From a virus: DNA of 40,027 nt. The stretch is taken from positions 1 to 40,027 of the IMG/VR virus record IMGVR_UViG_3300049919_000170. One strand, given 5' to 3'. A program made the translations under genes and the position numbers. Under the pieces are notes generated by a model that was given only the letters and a program-made list of their open reading frames with translations, was not told the origin of the DNA and did not search any database. This document shows positions 6,220 to 40,027 of this stretch, piece by piece; within the stretch, counting starts at the first letter, position 1; the number at the start of each line of letters is the position of its first letter.

Positions 6220-8091
6220 ATGAACGCCCCCGAAGCCATCCCCGCCGCCGCACTGCTGCCGCTCGACAGCATTTATCAATCGCCCACCAACCCGCGTAAA
6301 CATTTCGACGCCGCCAAACTCAGTGAGCTCGCCATCAGCATCAAGGAACACGGCGTGCTGCAGCCGATCCTGGTGCGCGCGTGGCAAGTCGGCATGGCGA
6401 ATCCGACGCAGCGGCCCATGGTCGAGATGATGAGCACCTACGAGATTGTTTGCGGCGAACGGCGCTGGCGGGCCAGCCAGATCGCAGGCAGCACCACCAT
6501 CCTGGCCATCGTCCGCGAGCTGACCGACAAGCAAGTGTTGGAGTTGCAAGTCGTTGAAAATTTGCAGCGTGAAGACGTGCATCCGCTCGAAGAGGCCGAG
6601 GGTTACGAGCGGCTGATGAAGTATCACGACTACACCGCCGACAGCCTGGGCGACAAGATCGGCAAAAGCCGCGCCTACATCTACGCCCGCATCAAGCTGC
6701 TGGCCCTGGTGCCACCGGCGCGGGATCTGTTCTTCGAGGGCAAGCTCACCGCCAGCACCGCGCTCTTGATCGCACGCATCCCCGGCGCCACGTTGCAGAT
6801 CAAGGCGGCCGGCGAGATCACCAAGCCCACCTACACGGGCGACCCGATGTCCTACCGCGCCGCCGCCGACTTCCTGCAGCGCACCTACACGCTCGACCTC
6901 GATGACGCCACCTGGAAGATGGATGATGCCACCCTGGTCAAGAAGGCCGGCAGCTGCGACGCCTGCCCGCACAGGAGCGGCAACGACCTGATCCTCTTCG
7001 CCGAGATCGAGGATCCAAACGTCTGCACTAACCCGCCCTGCTTTGCCGACAAGCGCGAGACCAACTTCCTGCGCCTGAAAGAGATCGCCCAGAAATCCGG
7101 CCGCGAGATCGTCAGCGGCAAGGAAGCCGAAGAGGCCCTGTTCAGCGGACGCTACAGCCTGGAGAAGTTCAACCTGGCCAACCTTGACGACACCTGCCGC
7201 GATGACCCCGATCAGCGCAGCTACCGCGACATCCTCGGCAAGCAGGCCCCGGCCGTCACCTACGTGGAAGACAAGCGCCACGGCATGCTGGTCGAGGCGG
7301 TTGATACCAAGCTGCTTGCCATTGCCTTGAAGAAGGCCGGCATCAAGCCGCCAGCGGGCAAGACCGGGAAGACCGATCGCGCCGACAACGACTACCAGCG
7401 CGAGCGCGAAGAGAGCGAAGCCAAGACCAAAGCCGAGAACCTCTGGCGCGGCGATCTGTTCCAGGCGGTGCGGGTCAAGATCAGCGAACGCTTCGCCGCC
7501 ACCAAGCTGCGCGCCGACGACCTTGCACCGCTGGCCGTGGCGCTGTACCTCAAGGAACGCGAATCTGGCAATGCCACGGACCTCATGACGCTGTGGGGCT
7601 TCGAGGCCCCAGAAGAAGACGATTTCGACACCAACACCGACCTCTTTGTCGACACGCTCAAGCACCGCATTGCTTCGGAACTTTGGCTGTTCATCAACGA
7701 CTTGTCATTGATCGATGACGCCACAACCACCTGGTATGACGTCAAGGAAAATCGCCAGCCCGAGCTGCTGCTCGCCGCCGCCAAACGATTCGACATCGAT
7801 GCCCAAGCCCTGCGCGCACCGCCGCCCGAGCCTGCCAAAGTGCAGTCCAAGACTGCAAAATCCAAGGCCGCAAAACCGGCTTCCACCCCTTCCGATGCTG
7901 CGCATGCGGGAGAAATAAGCGCGACGGCTGCGCCGGCCGATAGCGCAAAGCCGGTGCTGAAAGCGGACGCGAAAAAAACCAAGGCCAAGGCGAATCCAGC
8001 GCCGTCTTCGACGGCGAACGAGGCGGCTGCGCCGCCTAAAAGCACTCCGATGCCCGCCTGGCCCTTTCCGACAGGAGCCTCGGCCAAGTGA
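6220..8091 (+). CDS. Large ParB/Spo0J-like protein, 623 aa
   Basis: Starts at the ATG at 6220 after CCAGGAG; the open frame further upstream is antisense-like noise across the recombinase gene. The N-terminal ParB domain is clear: LDSIYQSPTNPRKHF, GERRWRAS, ENLQREDVHPLEEAEGY, then a helix-turn-helix (DKIGKSRAYIYARIKLL). A cysteine cluster follows at about 247-270 (CDACPHRSGN, CTNPPCF), possibly metal-binding. The C-terminus is a Lys/Ala/Pro-rich low-complexity tail. At 623 aa it is roughly twice the size of chromosomal ParB. No ParA is present, so classical partition is unlikely; phage ParB-like proteins may bind or cut DNA or act in replication. Confidence 0.8.
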   Translation: MNAPEAIPAAALLPLDSIYQSPTNPRKHFDAAKLSELAISIKEHGVLQPILVRAWQVGMANPTQRPMVEMMSTYEIVCGERRWRASQIAGSTTILAIVRELTDKQVLELQVVENLQREDVHPLEEAEGYERLMKYHDYTADSLGDKIGKSRAYIYARIKLLALVPPARDLFFEGKLTASTALLIARIPGATLQIKAAGEITKPTYTGDPMSYRAAADFLQRTYTLDLDDATWKMDDATLVKKAGSCDACPHRSGNDLILFAEIEDPNVCTNPPCFADKRETNFLRLKEIAQKSGREIVSGKEAEEALFSGRYSLEKFNLANLDDTCRDDPDQRSYRDILGKQAPAVTYVEDKRHGMLVEAVDTKLLAIALKKAGIKPPAGKTGKTDRADNDYQREREESEAKTKAENLWRGDLFQAVRVKISERFAATKLRADDLAPLAVALYLKERESGNATDLMTLWGFEAPEEDDFDTNTDLFVDTLKHRIASELWLFINDLSLIDDATTTWYDVKENRQPELLLAAAKRFDIDAQALRAPPPEPAKVQSKTAKSKAAKPASTPSDAAHAGEISATAAPADSAKPVLKADAKKTKAKANPAPSSTANEAAAPPKSTPMPAWPFPTGASAK

Positions 8092-34009: not shown

Positions 34010-35853
34010 TTGCGCGGAGGCTGCATACGGGCCTGCAGGGCGGCGCTCATGGCGCCGGCGACGCCGGTCGGCGTGACGCCAGCGCCGACTTTTGCCAAGG
34101 CTCGCCGCACCGGATCGATCTTCGACAACCGAAAGCCCGCCAGCGAATACTTCCAGCAGTCGTAGGCTTCGTTGCGTACCCGCGTCTGCTGCCACTCCCG
34201 CACCAACCGCCCGCGGTAGGTTTTTTCGACCAGGCGGTTGCTGGTCAATTGTGCAAAAAATTCATCATCGAAGGCGGATTCGTTAGCGGGAAAATGCACA
34301 TAGCCGGCGCGGCCCGCGCCATCGGCGCCCGGCTCCAACTTGAGGCGCTGGGTAATCAGCGCCTTGGCCGCCTCGTCCGCCACCAGGAAGGGTGAAAAGC
34401 CCTTCTTGCGGCGCTTTCGCAGCCGCCGCTTGCGGTCGTCGTCGGCTTCGATCAGGGTCTTGCCGCGGCCCTCCATGCCCTTGACCACGAACAACCAGTG
34501 CCGGCGCCGGGCGAATTCCAGCACCTGGTCGGTGTTGTAGCCCGAATCGATGCCGCCGCAGTCGGGCGCCAGAGCATCCAGCTCGCCGGCCAGCTCCACC
34601 CACGGCTCGATGCCGGCCGTGTCGCCTTCGATGATCAGGTGATCGATCGCCCAGGCTTCCTCGCCAACGCCGATGTCGTACACACTGACCTCGATGCGAT
34701 CCTTCTGCACGTCGATGCCGACCGAGCGCACCCGACCGCCGGCGCCGGAAGTGTCGTAGCCCTCCAGCCGGTTAAGGATGTCCAGCGGATTGACTTCCTC
34801 GCCGCGCTCTTCCCACGGCTCACCCAGGTTGGTGTTGATCCATGCACGCAGCGTGGATGTGTTGTCCTGCGCCGACAGCCAGCCGCGCACCAGGTCCGCC
34901 CAACTCGGCCCCAGCCCGATCGGCGCATACAGCGCGCTGATGTGGTAGCCGCGCACCAGGCGCTCGGGGTGCCGCGCCATCCACACCCCGCCGGCCAGCA
35001 TCGCCGGCTTGTGGTGCTCGCCGATCTCGGCGCCACACTCACGACAGACATAGCGGACGTTGATCACCTGGCCATCGGCCAGCACCGTCCATTTCATGCC
35101 GTGCGGCAGCTCGTGCCCACCCCACTCCAGTGGCTGACGCTCACCGCAGTGCGGGCAGGGCACAAAATATCGCCGCTGGTCGCTTTTCTCGTACTGGCGA
35201 TGAATCAGCGCGCCCTTCACCGTCGGCGTCGAGATATACACGCGCGTCGCCCGCGGGAATGCCTTGGTGCGCCCCTCGGCCAGCGTGATGATGTCGCCTT
35301 CCTCGCCGATCTCTTCCGGGAAGCGGTCGAGGTCGTCCAGGATCAAGAGCCGCACCGACTTCTGCGCGTAACTGTTCGCCGAATTTCCGCCGGCCAGGAA
35401 CAGCACCCCGCCGGGAAAGTCGATCAGATCCTGCCGGTTTGCCGCATCCCGCGCCCGCACGCCGCCCAGCAGCGCGCGCACCACTTCGGTTTCCTGCAGC
35501 AGCGGGTTGAGCTTCTGCACCTTCCACGAATCGCGCGATTCCAGCGTCGGCAGCAGCACCATCGCCGGGCACGGCGCGTGGTCCATGGTGTAGCCCAGCA
35601 GGTTGATCACCGCCTCGGTGACGCCGACCTGCGAGGATTTCATCACCACGATGTCGCGCACCCGGCTGGTGGCGCTGCAGGAGTCCATGATCTCGCGCAG
35701 AACAGGGTTGCGCGCCGTGCGCCCGCGGCCGCGCTCGCTGGCCTGCTTGCCGGACAGGATGCGGTGGTCGTCCGCCCACTGGCTGACCGTCAATGCACGG
35801 CGCGGGGCGGCCGCGTGGCGCAGGGTGGTTAGGCAGTGGGCCAGGTGGGTCAT
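34006..35853 (-). CDS. Terminase large subunit (lambda gpA family)
   Basis: Encodes 615 aa. Walker A-like KSSQVGVTE with the following helix, Walker B-like LLILDDLDRFPEE, a zinc-ribbon-like insertion (CPHCGE ... CRECGA), and nuclease-domain segments (VRSVGIDVQKDRIEVSVYDI, then DCGGIDSGYNTDQVLEF) place it in the GpA family. The family cuts at cos sites and pumps DNA into the head. Start overlaps the small terminase stop by ATGA. Confidence 0.95.
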   Translation of the reverse strand: MTHLAHCLTTLRHAAAPRRALTVSQWADDHRILSGKQASERGRGRTARNPVLREIMDSCSATSRVRDIVVMKSSQVGVTEAVINLLGYTMDHAPCPAMVLLPTLESRDSWKVQKLNPLLQETEVVRALLGGVRARDAANRQDLIDFPGGVLFLAGGNSANSYAQKSVRLLILDDLDRFPEEIGEEGDIITLAEGRTKAFPRATRVYISTPTVKGALIHRQYEKSDQRRYFVPCPHCGERQPLEWGGHELPHGMKWTVLADGQVINVRYVCRECGAEIGEHHKPAMLAGGVWMARHPERLVRGYHISALYAPIGLGPSWADLVRGWLSAQDNTSTLRAWINTNLGEPWEERGEEVNPLDILNRLEGYDTSGAGGRVRSVGIDVQKDRIEVSVYDIGVGEEAWAIDHLIIEGDTAGIEPWVELAGELDALAPDCGGIDSGYNTDQVLEFARRRHWLFVVKGMEGRGKTLIEADDDRKRRLRKRRKKGFSPFLVADEAAKALITQRLKLEPGADGAGRAGYVHFPANESAFDDEFFAQLTSNRLVEKTYRGRLVREWQQTRVRNEAYDCWKYSLAGFRLSKIDPVRRALAKVGAGVTPTGVAGAMSAALQARMQPPRK

Positions 35854-36473
35854 GTGCCGCCCTGCCCGGCCGCCTGCGCCGCGCGGCCCATGTCGTCGGC
35901 GACGGCCGACAGGATGCTGCGGCAGTGTTCCGCCAGCAGCGCATGCACTTCGTCCATGTCGGTGACAGGCGCCACCAGCGGCGCGATCTGGTCGGCCAGC
36001 ACGTCGAGCTTGGCTCGCACGCTGGCGCCGAAGGCGCGCAGGGCGGCGTCGACGTCGCCTTTCGGAATCAGCTCGCCGCGCATCTGCTGTACTTCCATTT
36101 CAGCTTTGTCGGCCAGCGCCGCTTCCTTGCGCGCCTGGGCGTCGGATCGGCGCTCGCCCATGGGCGCATCAGGCGCAGGCGCGGTGCTCGATGCGGCGCC
36201 CTGCCCTTCACACTCACCCGACCCCGCCGAAGGCGCCACGGCCGTTTTTTGCGGTTCCTGTTGCACACTCAGTTGCGCCCGATTCGCGGCGTGCCGTTCC
36301 GCAACGTCGAAGCGCATGCCGCCGGTTTCCTCGATCAACACCAGGCTGGCGGCGACATCGACCCGCTTGCCCAGCATCACCAGCCGCCTGGCCTGCTTCA
36401 GCCGAGTGACCGTGGAACGGTGCCAACCTTGCCGCGCGGCGAACTCGGCTTGCGTGCAGACGTTTGCGCTCAT
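35850..36473 (-). CDS. Terminase small subunit (Nu1-like)
   Basis: Encodes 207 aa from 36473 (MSANVCTQAEFAARQGWHRS). An N-terminal helix-turn-helix (CTQAEFAARQGWHRSTVTRL) recalls lambda Nu1, which binds cosB. A Pro/Ala/Ser-rich linker and a helical C-terminal part that should contact the large subunit (DAALRAFGASVRAKLDVLAD) follow. The frame open further upstream is not coding-like. The start overlaps the 77-aa gene. Confidence 0.85.
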   Translation of the reverse strand: MSANVCTQAEFAARQGWHRSTVTRLKQARRLVMLGKRVDVAASLVLIEETGGMRFDVAERHAANRAQLSVQQEPQKTAVAPSAGSGECEGQGAASSTAPAPDAPMGERRSDAQARKEAALADKAEMEVQQMRGELIPKGDVDAALRAFGASVRAKLDVLADQIAPLVAPVTDMDEVHALLAEHCRSILSAVADDMGRAAQAAGQGGT

Positions 36474-36703
36474 TTCTTTGGCACCAAGATGACCATCTGC
36501 GTGGCGCCGACCTCGGTGCCACTCTGTACCGGCCGCGTGCCAACCTGGTGCCCGGCCTCGCTGGCGTAAAAGCCAGGCAGCCCGCTGACGCCGGCCTTGA
36601 TGACGGCGTTGATGTCGTCGACCCCAAAGGCGGCGCGCAGATCGTCGATCCAGGTGGTGACCAGTGGCATGGCGGTGCGCAAATTGGCGGGTTTGGTGCT
36701 CAT
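36470..36703 (-). CDS. Hypothetical protein, 77 aa, ahead of terminase small subunit
   Basis: MSTKPANLRTAMPLVTTWID from 36703, then DLRAAFGVDDINAVIKAGVS. A small helical protein with no recognised domain; it has only a weak Shine-Dalgarno. It starts immediately beside the left arm of the repeat cluster at 36711. It may be a DNA-packaging or replication accessory. Confidence 0.6.
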   Translation of the reverse strand: MSTKPANLRTAMPLVTTWIDDLRAAFGVDDINAVIKAGVSGLPGFYASEAGHQVGTRPVQSGTEVGATQMVILVPKK

Positions 36704-36950
36704 AACGCGGACCGAACACCACCGAACACCGGACCGAACACCACAGTACACCGTAAGTCATTGATATCTACGGGCCGAACATACGTACACCACTCCCGTA
36801 GACGCGAGGAGAGTATGTAATGTGCGCGAGGGCGCGAGCATGCTCGCGTGTACACGCATGGATTGGCGGTGTACGCCTGTTCGGTCCCAGTCGTAGCGCG
36901 GTTCTTGCCTGTTCGGTCCATGGTGTTCGGTGGCGTTCGGTGGTGTTCGG
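36704..36950. other. Iteron and palindrome cluster: replication origin and/or cos/pac candidate
   Basis: Gene-free 247 nt. Four leftward copies of the 8-mer TGTTCGGT or a one-base variant (minus strand; 36711-36718, 36721-36728, 36733-36740, 36774-36781) face five rightward copies (36878-36885, 36910-36917, 36924-36931, 36934-36941, 36944-36951). Several are exactly 10 bp apart. Between the arms lie palindromes at 36833-36857. It sits between primase-helicase and small terminase genes, which fits an origin (iterons) or a cos region (terminase-binding repeats plus dyad). Frames running through it merely translate the repeats. Confidence 0.65.
36833..36857. repeat. Two overlapping perfect palindromes
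   Basis: CGCGAGCATGCTCGCG (36833-36848) and GCGTGTACACGC (36846-36857), sharing 3 bp. They lie at the centre between the opposed repeat arms. Possible cruciform, regulator site or terminase nicking site. Confidence 0.7.
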
Positions 36951-39323
36951 TCATGAGCGGTCGCCCAGCGCTTGCTGGAAGTCGAAAAAACACGTTGTTA
37001 GCCAGGCCGCCTGCGTGTGAGCCGGATCGCGCCGCTTGTCCGGCAGGCCGGCGCCAATGGCGTACTGCATGGCCTCGTCGCTGGGGATGACGAATCGCGT
37101 GCGCACCGTCTTGCCTCCATTTAGGCTTTCGTAGCGGTCGCCCAGCGTCTTGCGCCAGCGCGGCAGCTTGGCCAGATGGCCGACGAACTGGTTTGACTCC
37201 CTAGGCTTGAAGACGCCCTCGCGTTTGCACCATCGACCATAGGCGCCGTAGAGGTCGGAACTGGCGCATGGTCCGAATGGGAGCGCTCCGGCGCCGGAAT
37301 CGAAGACGATGCCACCGGCCTGCCAGTCCTGCACGAAGCGCTCGATGCTGTCCATGCTGATGTCGATCACGTCACGCTTACTCTGCGTCATCGGTGGCTT
37401 GCTGTGCTCGGTGAAGTCGCCCAGGTCAAGCGTGGCCAGGTGGTGGTGCAGCGCCGCCACGCCACCGGCATCCAGCTCGGCGCGGATGTCGCCATAAAAA
37501 CCCTCGGGCAGCTTTTCCGGGGTCCAGATCACGGTATAGCGCCGGTCGTCCTTGTCCAGCACCAGCGGCTGGCGTTCGTTCGACAGAAACACCAGATTGA
37601 CGTGGTTACGCTCGTCGTGCGCCGCTACGTTTTTCGGGTTGATGCGAATCCACTCGCCGGTAACGATGCCCTTGAGCTTGTTCTTTACGTGGTAAAGCTC
37701 AGCCCGCGCCACTACTTCGTCGGCGATCAGGAACAGCTTGCGGCTGGCCCAGTCGTTGAATTTGTCCTCGATGGCCGACTGATCGACGATGCGCCCGTAC
37801 TCACCATAGATCGCCATGACGGTCTCGAAGAATAGATTTTTGCCGGCGCCCTGCGGCCCGTGGAACACTAGGGCGGTGCGCATCTTGGCGCCAGGGTGCT
37901 GGATCGGGTAAGCCAGCCAGCGCAGCACCCACTGATAAATTTCGCGCGGGTTCTCTTCGCCACTGCACAAGTATTCGAGCAGTTCGAGCAGCACCTTGCA
38001 CTGGCCGGCCTTCGGTTCCGTCGGCCACCCGCCCCACAGGTTGCATTTGATGCGCGCGTCGGTTCCGGCTGGGTCGAAGCCGACCTCATCCAGACGCACC
38101 ACACGCTTGCGGTTGCGCATGTCGCGCATGCCATGCTCGGGCAGCATATCGACCAGGTCGGCTTTCGGCACCAGCATGTGCTCGTCGCCATCGAACCAGG
38201 TACCGCCGGCGCCATACACCATCGCGTAACGCTCCAGCGCCTCATCCACCTGGATGACGCTGGCGATGTCCTCTTTCCGATTGCGCTCCCCCGCCCCCCT
38301 GGACGTAGCGCCCCGCGCGGAAGGTGCCGGCGAATCAAACCCCGCTAACCGGAGTGCGGCCTCGATCTGCGCCCGCACGATGGCCTCGCCTTCCAGGGCG
38401 GCCAGGTCGTTGAAGTCGGTCAGCTTCTTGCCGGCGCGATCGGCGGTAAATACCGGCACGGCGACGAAGCCGCCGACGGCGTGCGCGGCATTCTTCGCGG
38501 CGGTGACGCCGGGGTTTCCGTCGGTCAGGTAGTCGTCATCGGCGCAGAGCAGAATTTTCGCGCCGCGATAAGCCTTTTTGATGGCCTCGGCCACGGGTTG
38601 CAGGTTGTTGGCGCTGAATGCAACAACCACCGGCAGGCCGCTGGACTGGTGCAACGTGGCGGCGGTGGCGTAGCCTTCGGTGACCAGCACCGCGCCGCGC
38701 GGGATCGGCCCGACCAGGTGGTAGTGCCCGGTGACGGCGACACCCTTCGGCCAGAATTCCTTTTCCAGCTTTCCGGTCGGGCGTTGCTTGCCGCGAATCA
38801 ACTGCAGCCCCCACACCTTGCCGGCGGCGTCCATCATTGGCACCGCCACCGTGCCATTGCCAGACGGCGAGAAGCGCAGCCCATGCGCGCCGACGTTCTT
38901 GCGCACCAGGTAGTCCGATTCGCCCTCGGGCACATACTTGCGCCAGGCGCTGCCGGCCGCCAGCGCCGCCCGATCGGCCTCGGCATCACGCATGGCCTTC
39001 AGCCGCGCCATGTTTGCCTTCTGCCTGGCGGCGATCGCCTCGCGGTCTTCCTTGCTGATGGTCACCGCCCGGCCGTCGCGGTTGACCTTGATGCTGATCT
39101 TGCCGTTGTCGTTGCCCTGGTATGTGCCATAGGCCCCGGTGATGTAGCTCGCTCCGCCGATCTCCTTGGTGTTCAGCCAATACCAGCCGCGCTTTTCGCG
39201 CTGGTCGTCGGTGGTGTAGCACCGGCGAGGTTTCGGCGTATCGACCTCGATGTCAGACCCCGCAATTTCCAGCCCACCATCGCGGAGCTGGTTCTCTACG
39301 TCGTCGAAATTTACCCAGGTCAT
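36951..39323 (-). CDS. Replicative primase-helicase (TOPRIM plus DUF5906/D5-type helicase)
   Basis: Encodes 790 aa. N-terminal region, then a TOPRIM domain at about 211-305: VLVTEGYATAATLHQ (Glu216) and ILLCADDDYL (Asp262-264). The C-terminal superfamily 3/D5-type helicase has Walker A FHGPQGAGKN (489-496), Walker B LFLIADEVVA (about 530-539) and EWIRINPKNVAAHDERNHVN. Such fusions prime and unwind DNA at phage origins. It overlaps the upstream gpZ-like gene by ATGA and ends next to the iteron cluster, supporting an origin there. Confidence 0.9.
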   Translation of the reverse strand: MTWVNFDDVENQLRDGGLEIAGSDIEVDTPKPRRCYTTDDQREKRGWYWLNTKEIGGASYITGAYGTYQGNDNGKISIKVNRDGRAVTISKEDREAIAARQKANMARLKAMRDAEADRAALAAGSAWRKYVPEGESDYLVRKNVGAHGLRFSPSGNGTVAVPMMDAAGKVWGLQLIRGKQRPTGKLEKEFWPKGVAVTGHYHLVGPIPRGAVLVTEGYATAATLHQSSGLPVVVAFSANNLQPVAEAIKKAYRGAKILLCADDDYLTDGNPGVTAAKNAAHAVGGFVAVPVFTADRAGKKLTDFNDLAALEGEAIVRAQIEAALRLAGFDSPAPSARGATSRGAGERNRKEDIASVIQVDEALERYAMVYGAGGTWFDGDEHMLVPKADLVDMLPEHGMRDMRNRKRVVRLDEVGFDPAGTDARIKCNLWGGWPTEPKAGQCKVLLELLEYLCSGEENPREIYQWVLRWLAYPIQHPGAKMRTALVFHGPQGAGKNLFFETVMAIYGEYGRIVDQSAIEDKFNDWASRKLFLIADEVVARAELYHVKNKLKGIVTGEWIRINPKNVAAHDERNHVNLVFLSNERQPLVLDKDDRRYTVIWTPEKLPEGFYGDIRAELDAGGVAALHHHLATLDLGDFTEHSKPPMTQSKRDVIDISMDSIERFVQDWQAGGIVFDSGAGALPFGPCASSDLYGAYGRWCKREGVFKPRESNQFVGHLAKLPRWRKTLGDRYESLNGGKTVRTRFVIPSDEAMQYAIGAGLPDKRRDPAHTQAAWLTTCFFDFQQALGDRS

Positions 39324-40009
39324 CGGGCGGTCCTCATCGCCTGGTCAAAGGCAGCGGCAAATTGCTTGTCCCACTCGCGGCGCACCACTCGCAGCGCCTC
39401 GCGCTCGAAGTGAAAGCGCGGCTTGTACCGCGCCGGCGTGTCCTCGAACACGATCACCGGCACCAGCTTGCCGGGGTTGCCCGGAACGCGGCGCCAGATG
39501 CCCATCGGCGCCTTTTCCCAGCCGCGCCCGGTGGGCTTGCCGTAAAACAACTGGATCGGCGCGGCGCCCTTGCGCCGGTTGCCGACGCCGAGCTTCTTGG
39601 CGATGCCGCGCCCCAGGCTGCCATCCTGCGCCGACTGCTTCAGCCGGTCGATCAGGCCCTTCGGGATATTGCCGAAGCTGTTGAGCGTGATGTTGCCCGG
39701 CAGCTTGATGCCGCGTGATGTGGGCGTGCGCGTGCCGCCGGCGATCTGGTACTTGAGGTACCCCGCCTGGCGATCCATGAAGCCGACCACCGCCTGCAGG
39801 TCGTCGCGCCGCGCCGGCTTCACAAACATGCCGCGCTTGGTGAAAGACGTCGGGCGGTCCAGCTCGCGGTCCATCACCGCCGGCATCGCTTCGCGCACCT
39901 TGCCGGCGGTGCGCGTCAAAGCCACCGCCGCAGCAAATTTCACCTGCTTTTGCATGCCGGCCAGGTGCGCCAGCGTCTTGTCCAGCCCTTGAATCTCGAC
40001 CTTAATCAT
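39320..40009 (-). CDS. Minor tail/virion protein, gpZ or gp10-like, displaced upstream of primase
   Basis: Encodes 229 aa from the ATG at 40009 (MIKVEIQGLDKTLAHLAGMQ); a TTG at 40015 is rejected. KQVKFAAAVALTRTAGKVRE and a basic, Arg/Lys-rich body with ITLNSFGNIPKGLIDRLKQS resemble tail-completion proteins (lambda gpZ or HK97 gp10 group). The equivalent lambda gene lies between connector and terminator, so this position is unusual. It overlaps the primase start. The family call is by overall resemblance. Confidence 0.6.
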   Translation of the reverse strand: MIKVEIQGLDKTLAHLAGMQKQVKFAAAVALTRTAGKVREAMPAVMDRELDRPTSFTKRGMFVKPARRDDLQAVVGFMDRQAGYLKYQIAGGTRTPTSRGIKLPGNITLNSFGNIPKGLIDRLKQSAQDGSLGRGIAKKLGVGNRRKGAAPIQLFYGKPTGRGWEKAPMGIWRRVPGNPGKLVPVIVFEDTPARYKPRFHFEREALRVVRREWDKQFAAAFDQAMRTAR

Positions 40010-40027
40010 CAGCAAACCTTATACAGT

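Follow-up and report, generated by a model that had tools for sequence, protein, structure and literature searches.

A Probable PICI/P4-Type Replication Origin, an Opposed Iteron Array behind the Primase-Helicase Gene, in a Family of Tailed Phages

This analysis concerns a 40,027-nt virus record (the window; IMGVR_UViG_3300049919_000170), in which no exact terminal repeat was found. A 248-nt gap behind its primase-helicase gene is filled by an array of short repeats (iterons); beyond a 77-aa ORF lie the genes for the small and then the large terminase. The first-pass annotation placed the array between primase and terminase genes, which holds on the primase side, but on the other side the 77-aa ORF comes first and the small terminase gene (terS) only after it. 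A PHROG 1924 gene (minor tail protein; 39320–40015, minus strand) adjoins the primase gene directly upstream, and the replication gene therefore lies inside a structural cluster. The features of the locus are as follows.

36951–39323, minus strand: P4-alpha-like primase-helicase, 790 aa (TOPRIM, DUF5906/D5-type helicase and C-terminal winged helix), the proposed initiator (Pfam and PHROG matches, BLASTP, Foldseek)
36954–37274, minus strand: predicted winged-helix C-terminal domain, residues ~684–790, the proposed iteron reader (AlphaFold2, covariation, weak profile match)
36868–36951, minus strand: primase-proximal iteron half, copies at 36944, 36934, 36924, 36910 and 36878, plus a degenerate CGTACACC at 36868–36875
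36792–36867, no strand given: central region, GC-rich (39% AT), the proposed opening region
36711–36791, plus strand: terS-proximal iteron half, copies at 36711, 36721, 36733 and 36774, plus a degenerate CGTACACC at 36784–36791 and a degenerate AGTACACC at 36744–36751
36754–36766, minus strand: IHF-type site TATCAATGACTTA, an exact match to WATCAANNNNTTR, between two iteron groups
36700–36954, minus strand: 84-codon frame across the whole array, with ATGA overlaps with the primase stop and the next gene's start
36470–36703, minus strand: 77-aa ORF, function unassigned, directly after the array
35850–36473, minus strand: small terminase subunit (phrog_57), unlinked to the array

The array comprises nine TGTTCGGT-type octamers at 36711–36951 (seven exact and two with one mismatch), four in one orientation in the terS-proximal set (copy-to-copy spacings of 10, 12, and 41) and five in the other in the primase-proximal set (32, 14, 10, and 10). 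The first-pass count of nine opposed octamers, 4 + 5 in 241 nt, is confirmed, and, judged by the density elsewhere in the window, 0.13 octamers with at most one mismatch would be expected per 248 nt, giving a probability of at least nine of ~3e-14. The whole-window count is only mildly high (30 versus 23.9 expected), and clustering is therefore the exceptional part; array-type stretches elsewhere in the 40,027-nt record score lower than the array. Positions conserved in relatives revealed the two degenerate CGTACACC copies, each one mismatch from CGAACACC, and the AGTACACC copy is weaker than these. If all three are counted, the window array would be 6 + 6, the usual count of its relatives.

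The primase and its alignment were used to scan viral contigs and bacterial genomes for relatives, and cultured phages were added by tblastn. A k-mer-based array finder, scored against dinucleotide shuffles, was applied to the 360 nt behind the primase gene in 138 nonredundant loci. A significant array lies 3′ of the primase in 133 of them, with a mean score of 9.4 behind the gene versus 3.3 in the 360 nt in front of it, so that conservation in relatives, which the first-pass annotation had made a test of its reading, is borne out. The layout is kept despite differing spelling, there being 67 distinct best octamers among the loci; a search of viral contigs for the exact window pattern returned one unrelated match because iteron spelling differs between phages.

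These comparisons bear on whether the array could be a cosB- or pac-like packaging element, with the small terminase as its binding protein, as the first-pass annotation allowed. In lambda, cosB adjoins the small terminase gene and combines an IHF site with repeated binding sites for protein, and the present array likewise unites repeated sites and an IHF-type site; in the window and several relatives terS follows the array with one small ORF or none between. However, the array stays behind the primase where the terminase is several genes or kilobases away (Halomonas H4907; Pseudomonas pAN, PG1, Turba, and SC_9), the 360 nt ahead of terS showed no array above shuffles in any of six phages (Turba, SC_9, PG1, H4907, Mcat4, and Haddon), and the iterons covary with the primase C-terminus (see below). 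Among cultured phages a TerS homologous to that of the window was found only in Turba and Haddon, and in Turba the array is behind the primase and none is at terS. Since the array is kept at the primase and nothing is found upstream of terS in these six phages, we reject a packaging role as very unlikely; unlike lambda cosB, the array does not track terS in relatives. The same scans leave a combined origin-cos region, which the first-pass annotation had itself considered unusual, without support.

The geometry of the array is conserved along with its position. The first iteron lies a median of 13 nt past the primase stop and the total span is ~254 nt, with dominant spacings of 9, 12, and 32; left and right halves are opposed in 130 of 133 arrays. 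The commonest count is 6 + 6 (33 loci; modes of 6 on the left and 6 on the right), and the commonest groupings within halves are 4+2, then 3+3. The gaps between groups are enriched in exact IHF-type sites (WATCAANNNNTTR): the left gap has 16 and the right gap 14, on opposite strands, where 0.1 would be expected in each; the window has one such site. The centre between the halves is not AT-rich (41% AT in the family versus 39% for the loci as wholes, and 39% in the window), but contains alternating purine-pyrimidine runs that average 18 nt, compared with 11 nt in shuffled centres and 7 nt in random stretches. The window centre has a run of 16 and two palindromes, a 16-nt CGCGAGCATGCTCGCG (36833–36848) and a 12-nt GCGTGTACACGC (36846–36857).

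By sequence comparison the primase is a P4 alpha homologue (BLASTP E=2e-12, with a shared EGYATA motif at residue 216), its C-terminal domain aligning weakly; the nearest helicases by Foldseek are the NrS-1 helicase and SaPI5 PriRep. The closest known systems are the replicons of phage satellites. The PICI origin directly follows the 3′ end of its initiator gene and has two iteron sets around an AT-rich region, an organization which the authors described in 2018 as common to no other known bacterial replicon; in the plasmid test of EcCICFT073, maintenance requires primase and origin together (PMC6092414). In SaPIs the C-terminal domain recognizes iterons directly downstream of the helicase gene and Rep apparently forms two hexamers, which fits the 6 + 6 iteron count; in SCCmec Cch2, iterons close behind the helicase gene are likewise bound by the C-terminal domain (PMC7581432).

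The phage arrays share with the PICI/SaPI rep-ori (EcCICFT073, SaPIbov1, SaPI5) an origin-like position 3′ of a primase-helicase gene, two iteron sets around a centre, and element-specific iterons; the EcCICFT073 origin (L173 48996–49285, E. coli CFT073), with TGTCTACC iterons, has opposed outer halves similar to those of the phages. In contrast to these satellites, the phages are full-sized and tailed, and the window, S1, Turba, and PG1 carry terminase, portal, and structural genes, including tail genes. Their primases are of the TOPRIM type, whereas those of SaPIs are AEP (PMC7581432); their centre is GC-rich and alternating rather than AT-rich; and the near-fixed 4+2 / 3+3 geometry, the IHF-type sites, and a coupled open frame (see below) set them apart. 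SCCmec Cch2 also pairs a D5-type helicase with a C-terminal domain for iterons just downstream of its gene, but it has a separate primase and only three short direct repeats, with no opposed 6 + 6.

P4 raises the question of whether replication might instead start at another place in the genome, the array being a crr-like enhancer required in cis. Its initiator is homologous, its 8-nt iterons follow alpha in both orientations, and crr is directly 3′ of alpha (L172 4291–4590) while the annotated origin is ~4.5 kb away. However, crr consists of two 120-bp direct repeats rather than opposed halves around a distinct centre, and a terminator separates it from alpha, whereas in the phages translation is apparently coupled into the array. 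Neither P4-type 120-bp repeats nor a second array with TGTTCGGT-type iterons was found in the window, and PICI arrays from 3′ of the primase, combined with that gene, enable a plasmid to replicate (PMC6092414). An enhancer with a remote start is thus improbable, and the array itself as the origin remains our preferred reading.

Covariation points to the C-terminal domain of the primase as the candidate reader. Iteron distance correlates with the distance between primase C-termini (rho 0.64); the partial rho is 0.505 for the C-terminus given the core (0/200 permutations) and −0.02 for the core given the C-terminus, a few core-distance values resting on truncated contigs (e.g., L032). Covariation along the protein steps up at residues 698–782, and the most informative columns (727–730 and 741) are in the predicted wing of what AlphaFold2 models as a winged helix (pLDDT 92). 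The domain's profile matches the SaPI5 primase C-terminus weakly (E 0.04). Its structural neighbours are winged-helix proteins (PadR, ORC/Cdc6), with Z scores of ~5 that are too weak for a family name, and the P4 origin-binding domain is absent from these weak neighbours as listed. The covariation suggests that the C-terminal domain recognizes the iterons. The domain adjoins the array, so the two may recombine as a unit, which could account for part of the correlation; against linkage as the sole cause stands the rise of the signal within ~40 residues. An RKR motif in the putative reader accompanies GTGC/TGTG iterons (23/5 versus 14/31, p 3e-5); the motif was picked after the alignment had been seen and is therefore a lead only.

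The array is also crossed by an open reading frame. The start codon of this frame overlaps the primase stop in 100 of 133 loci, and the base preceding TGA stops is A in ~55%, versus 11% A at third positions. Of 132 loci, 88 have the coupled frame open across 80 codons, compared with 18 and 34 for the other two frames, and openness is associated with the stop-start overlap (p 9e-6, or p 0.02 when 48 diverged representatives are used). Among the most diverged representatives the coupled frame is open in 23, versus 17 and 7, and because the excess over the better of the other two is small the claim for the frame is less firm than that for the origin. In the window, the 84-codon frame has an ATGA overlap at its start and at its end, and its annotated counterpart is gp2 of phage S1. 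That annotation, like the excess of open frames, would fit iterons that are simply coding repeats of a real repetitive protein, which we nevertheless consider extremely unlikely. Substitutions in the coupled frame are equally distributed over the three codon positions (1861/1860/1871), in contrast to the primase control (4206/3476/9011), and on this ground we reject the coupled ORF as a real protein; half of the iterons are inverted, and the array is retained in many AT-richer relatives in which the coupled frame is closed. Given the equal substitutions, it is the frame rather than the peptide that seems to be conserved across the array. Our guess is that an open frame avoids transcriptional polarity into the packaging genes.

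Taken with the systems compared above, the array is very probably a replication origin, with the primase-helicase encoded immediately upstream as its initiator. Its best assignment is to the PICI/P4 type, carried here by a large family of tailed phages and differing from the known examples in several features. The first-pass suggestion of an origin with iterons is strongly supported, the position, geometry, and sequence of the array all tracking the primase-helicase. Cumulative GC skew, a check proposed with it, is uninformative: its maximum in the window falls around 34 kb and misses the array by 2.8 kb, no inflection was found at the array in the window or in three relatives (S1, Turba, and PG1), whose extremes also lie off the array, and genes running in one direction confound the skew.

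From the array, its tie to the primase, the geometry, the C-terminal covariation, the IHF-type sites, and the open coupled frame, all computed directly, we infer how binding, hexamer number, site of melting, IHF use, and initiation itself might be arranged. The primase-helicase would bind the iterons via its C-terminal winged-helix domain, with six iterons per orientation seating two head-to-head hexamers, and bending by IHF would bring proximal iteron groups next to distal ones. The GC-rich alternating purine-pyrimidine tract in the centre would next be opened by the rings, which would load on the exposed single strands and start priming. A broader proposal is more tentative, and we regard it as possible but rather less likely than its converse: that such origins are widespread and are translated through, with a stop-free frame kept without amino-acid selection (perhaps against Rho polarity into packaging genes), a GC-rich, Z-DNA-prone centre that opens, two hexamers placed on a 6 + 6 ruler, and iteron spelling that evolves with its reader.

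No description of such an origin in tailed phages was found in the literature searched, a search of incomplete coverage. The array offers a one-step route to the putative replication origin in many phages and prophages of Proteobacteria that have no annotated origin, and it would place in phages an origin type called unique to phage satellites in 2018, which bears on the source of the satellite replicons. With over 60 iterons and candidate winged-helix readers already paired in nature, a recognition code is open to direct test, and the GC-rich centre and apparently translated frame raise concrete questions on how such origins open.

In 5 of the 138 loci no clear array was found within 360 nt of the primase end; L130, L151, L156, and L165 are relatives of this kind, possibly decayed prophages or loci with shifted origins. 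Genes that follow the arrays of other loci include ParB-like or PAPS-reductase-like ones. Another of the five, Pseudomonas phage Haddon (L042), which has a diverged primase, has an unannotated TGTCCCAC array (7580–7850) displaced downstream by one ORF, and short annotated ORFs cover part of it.
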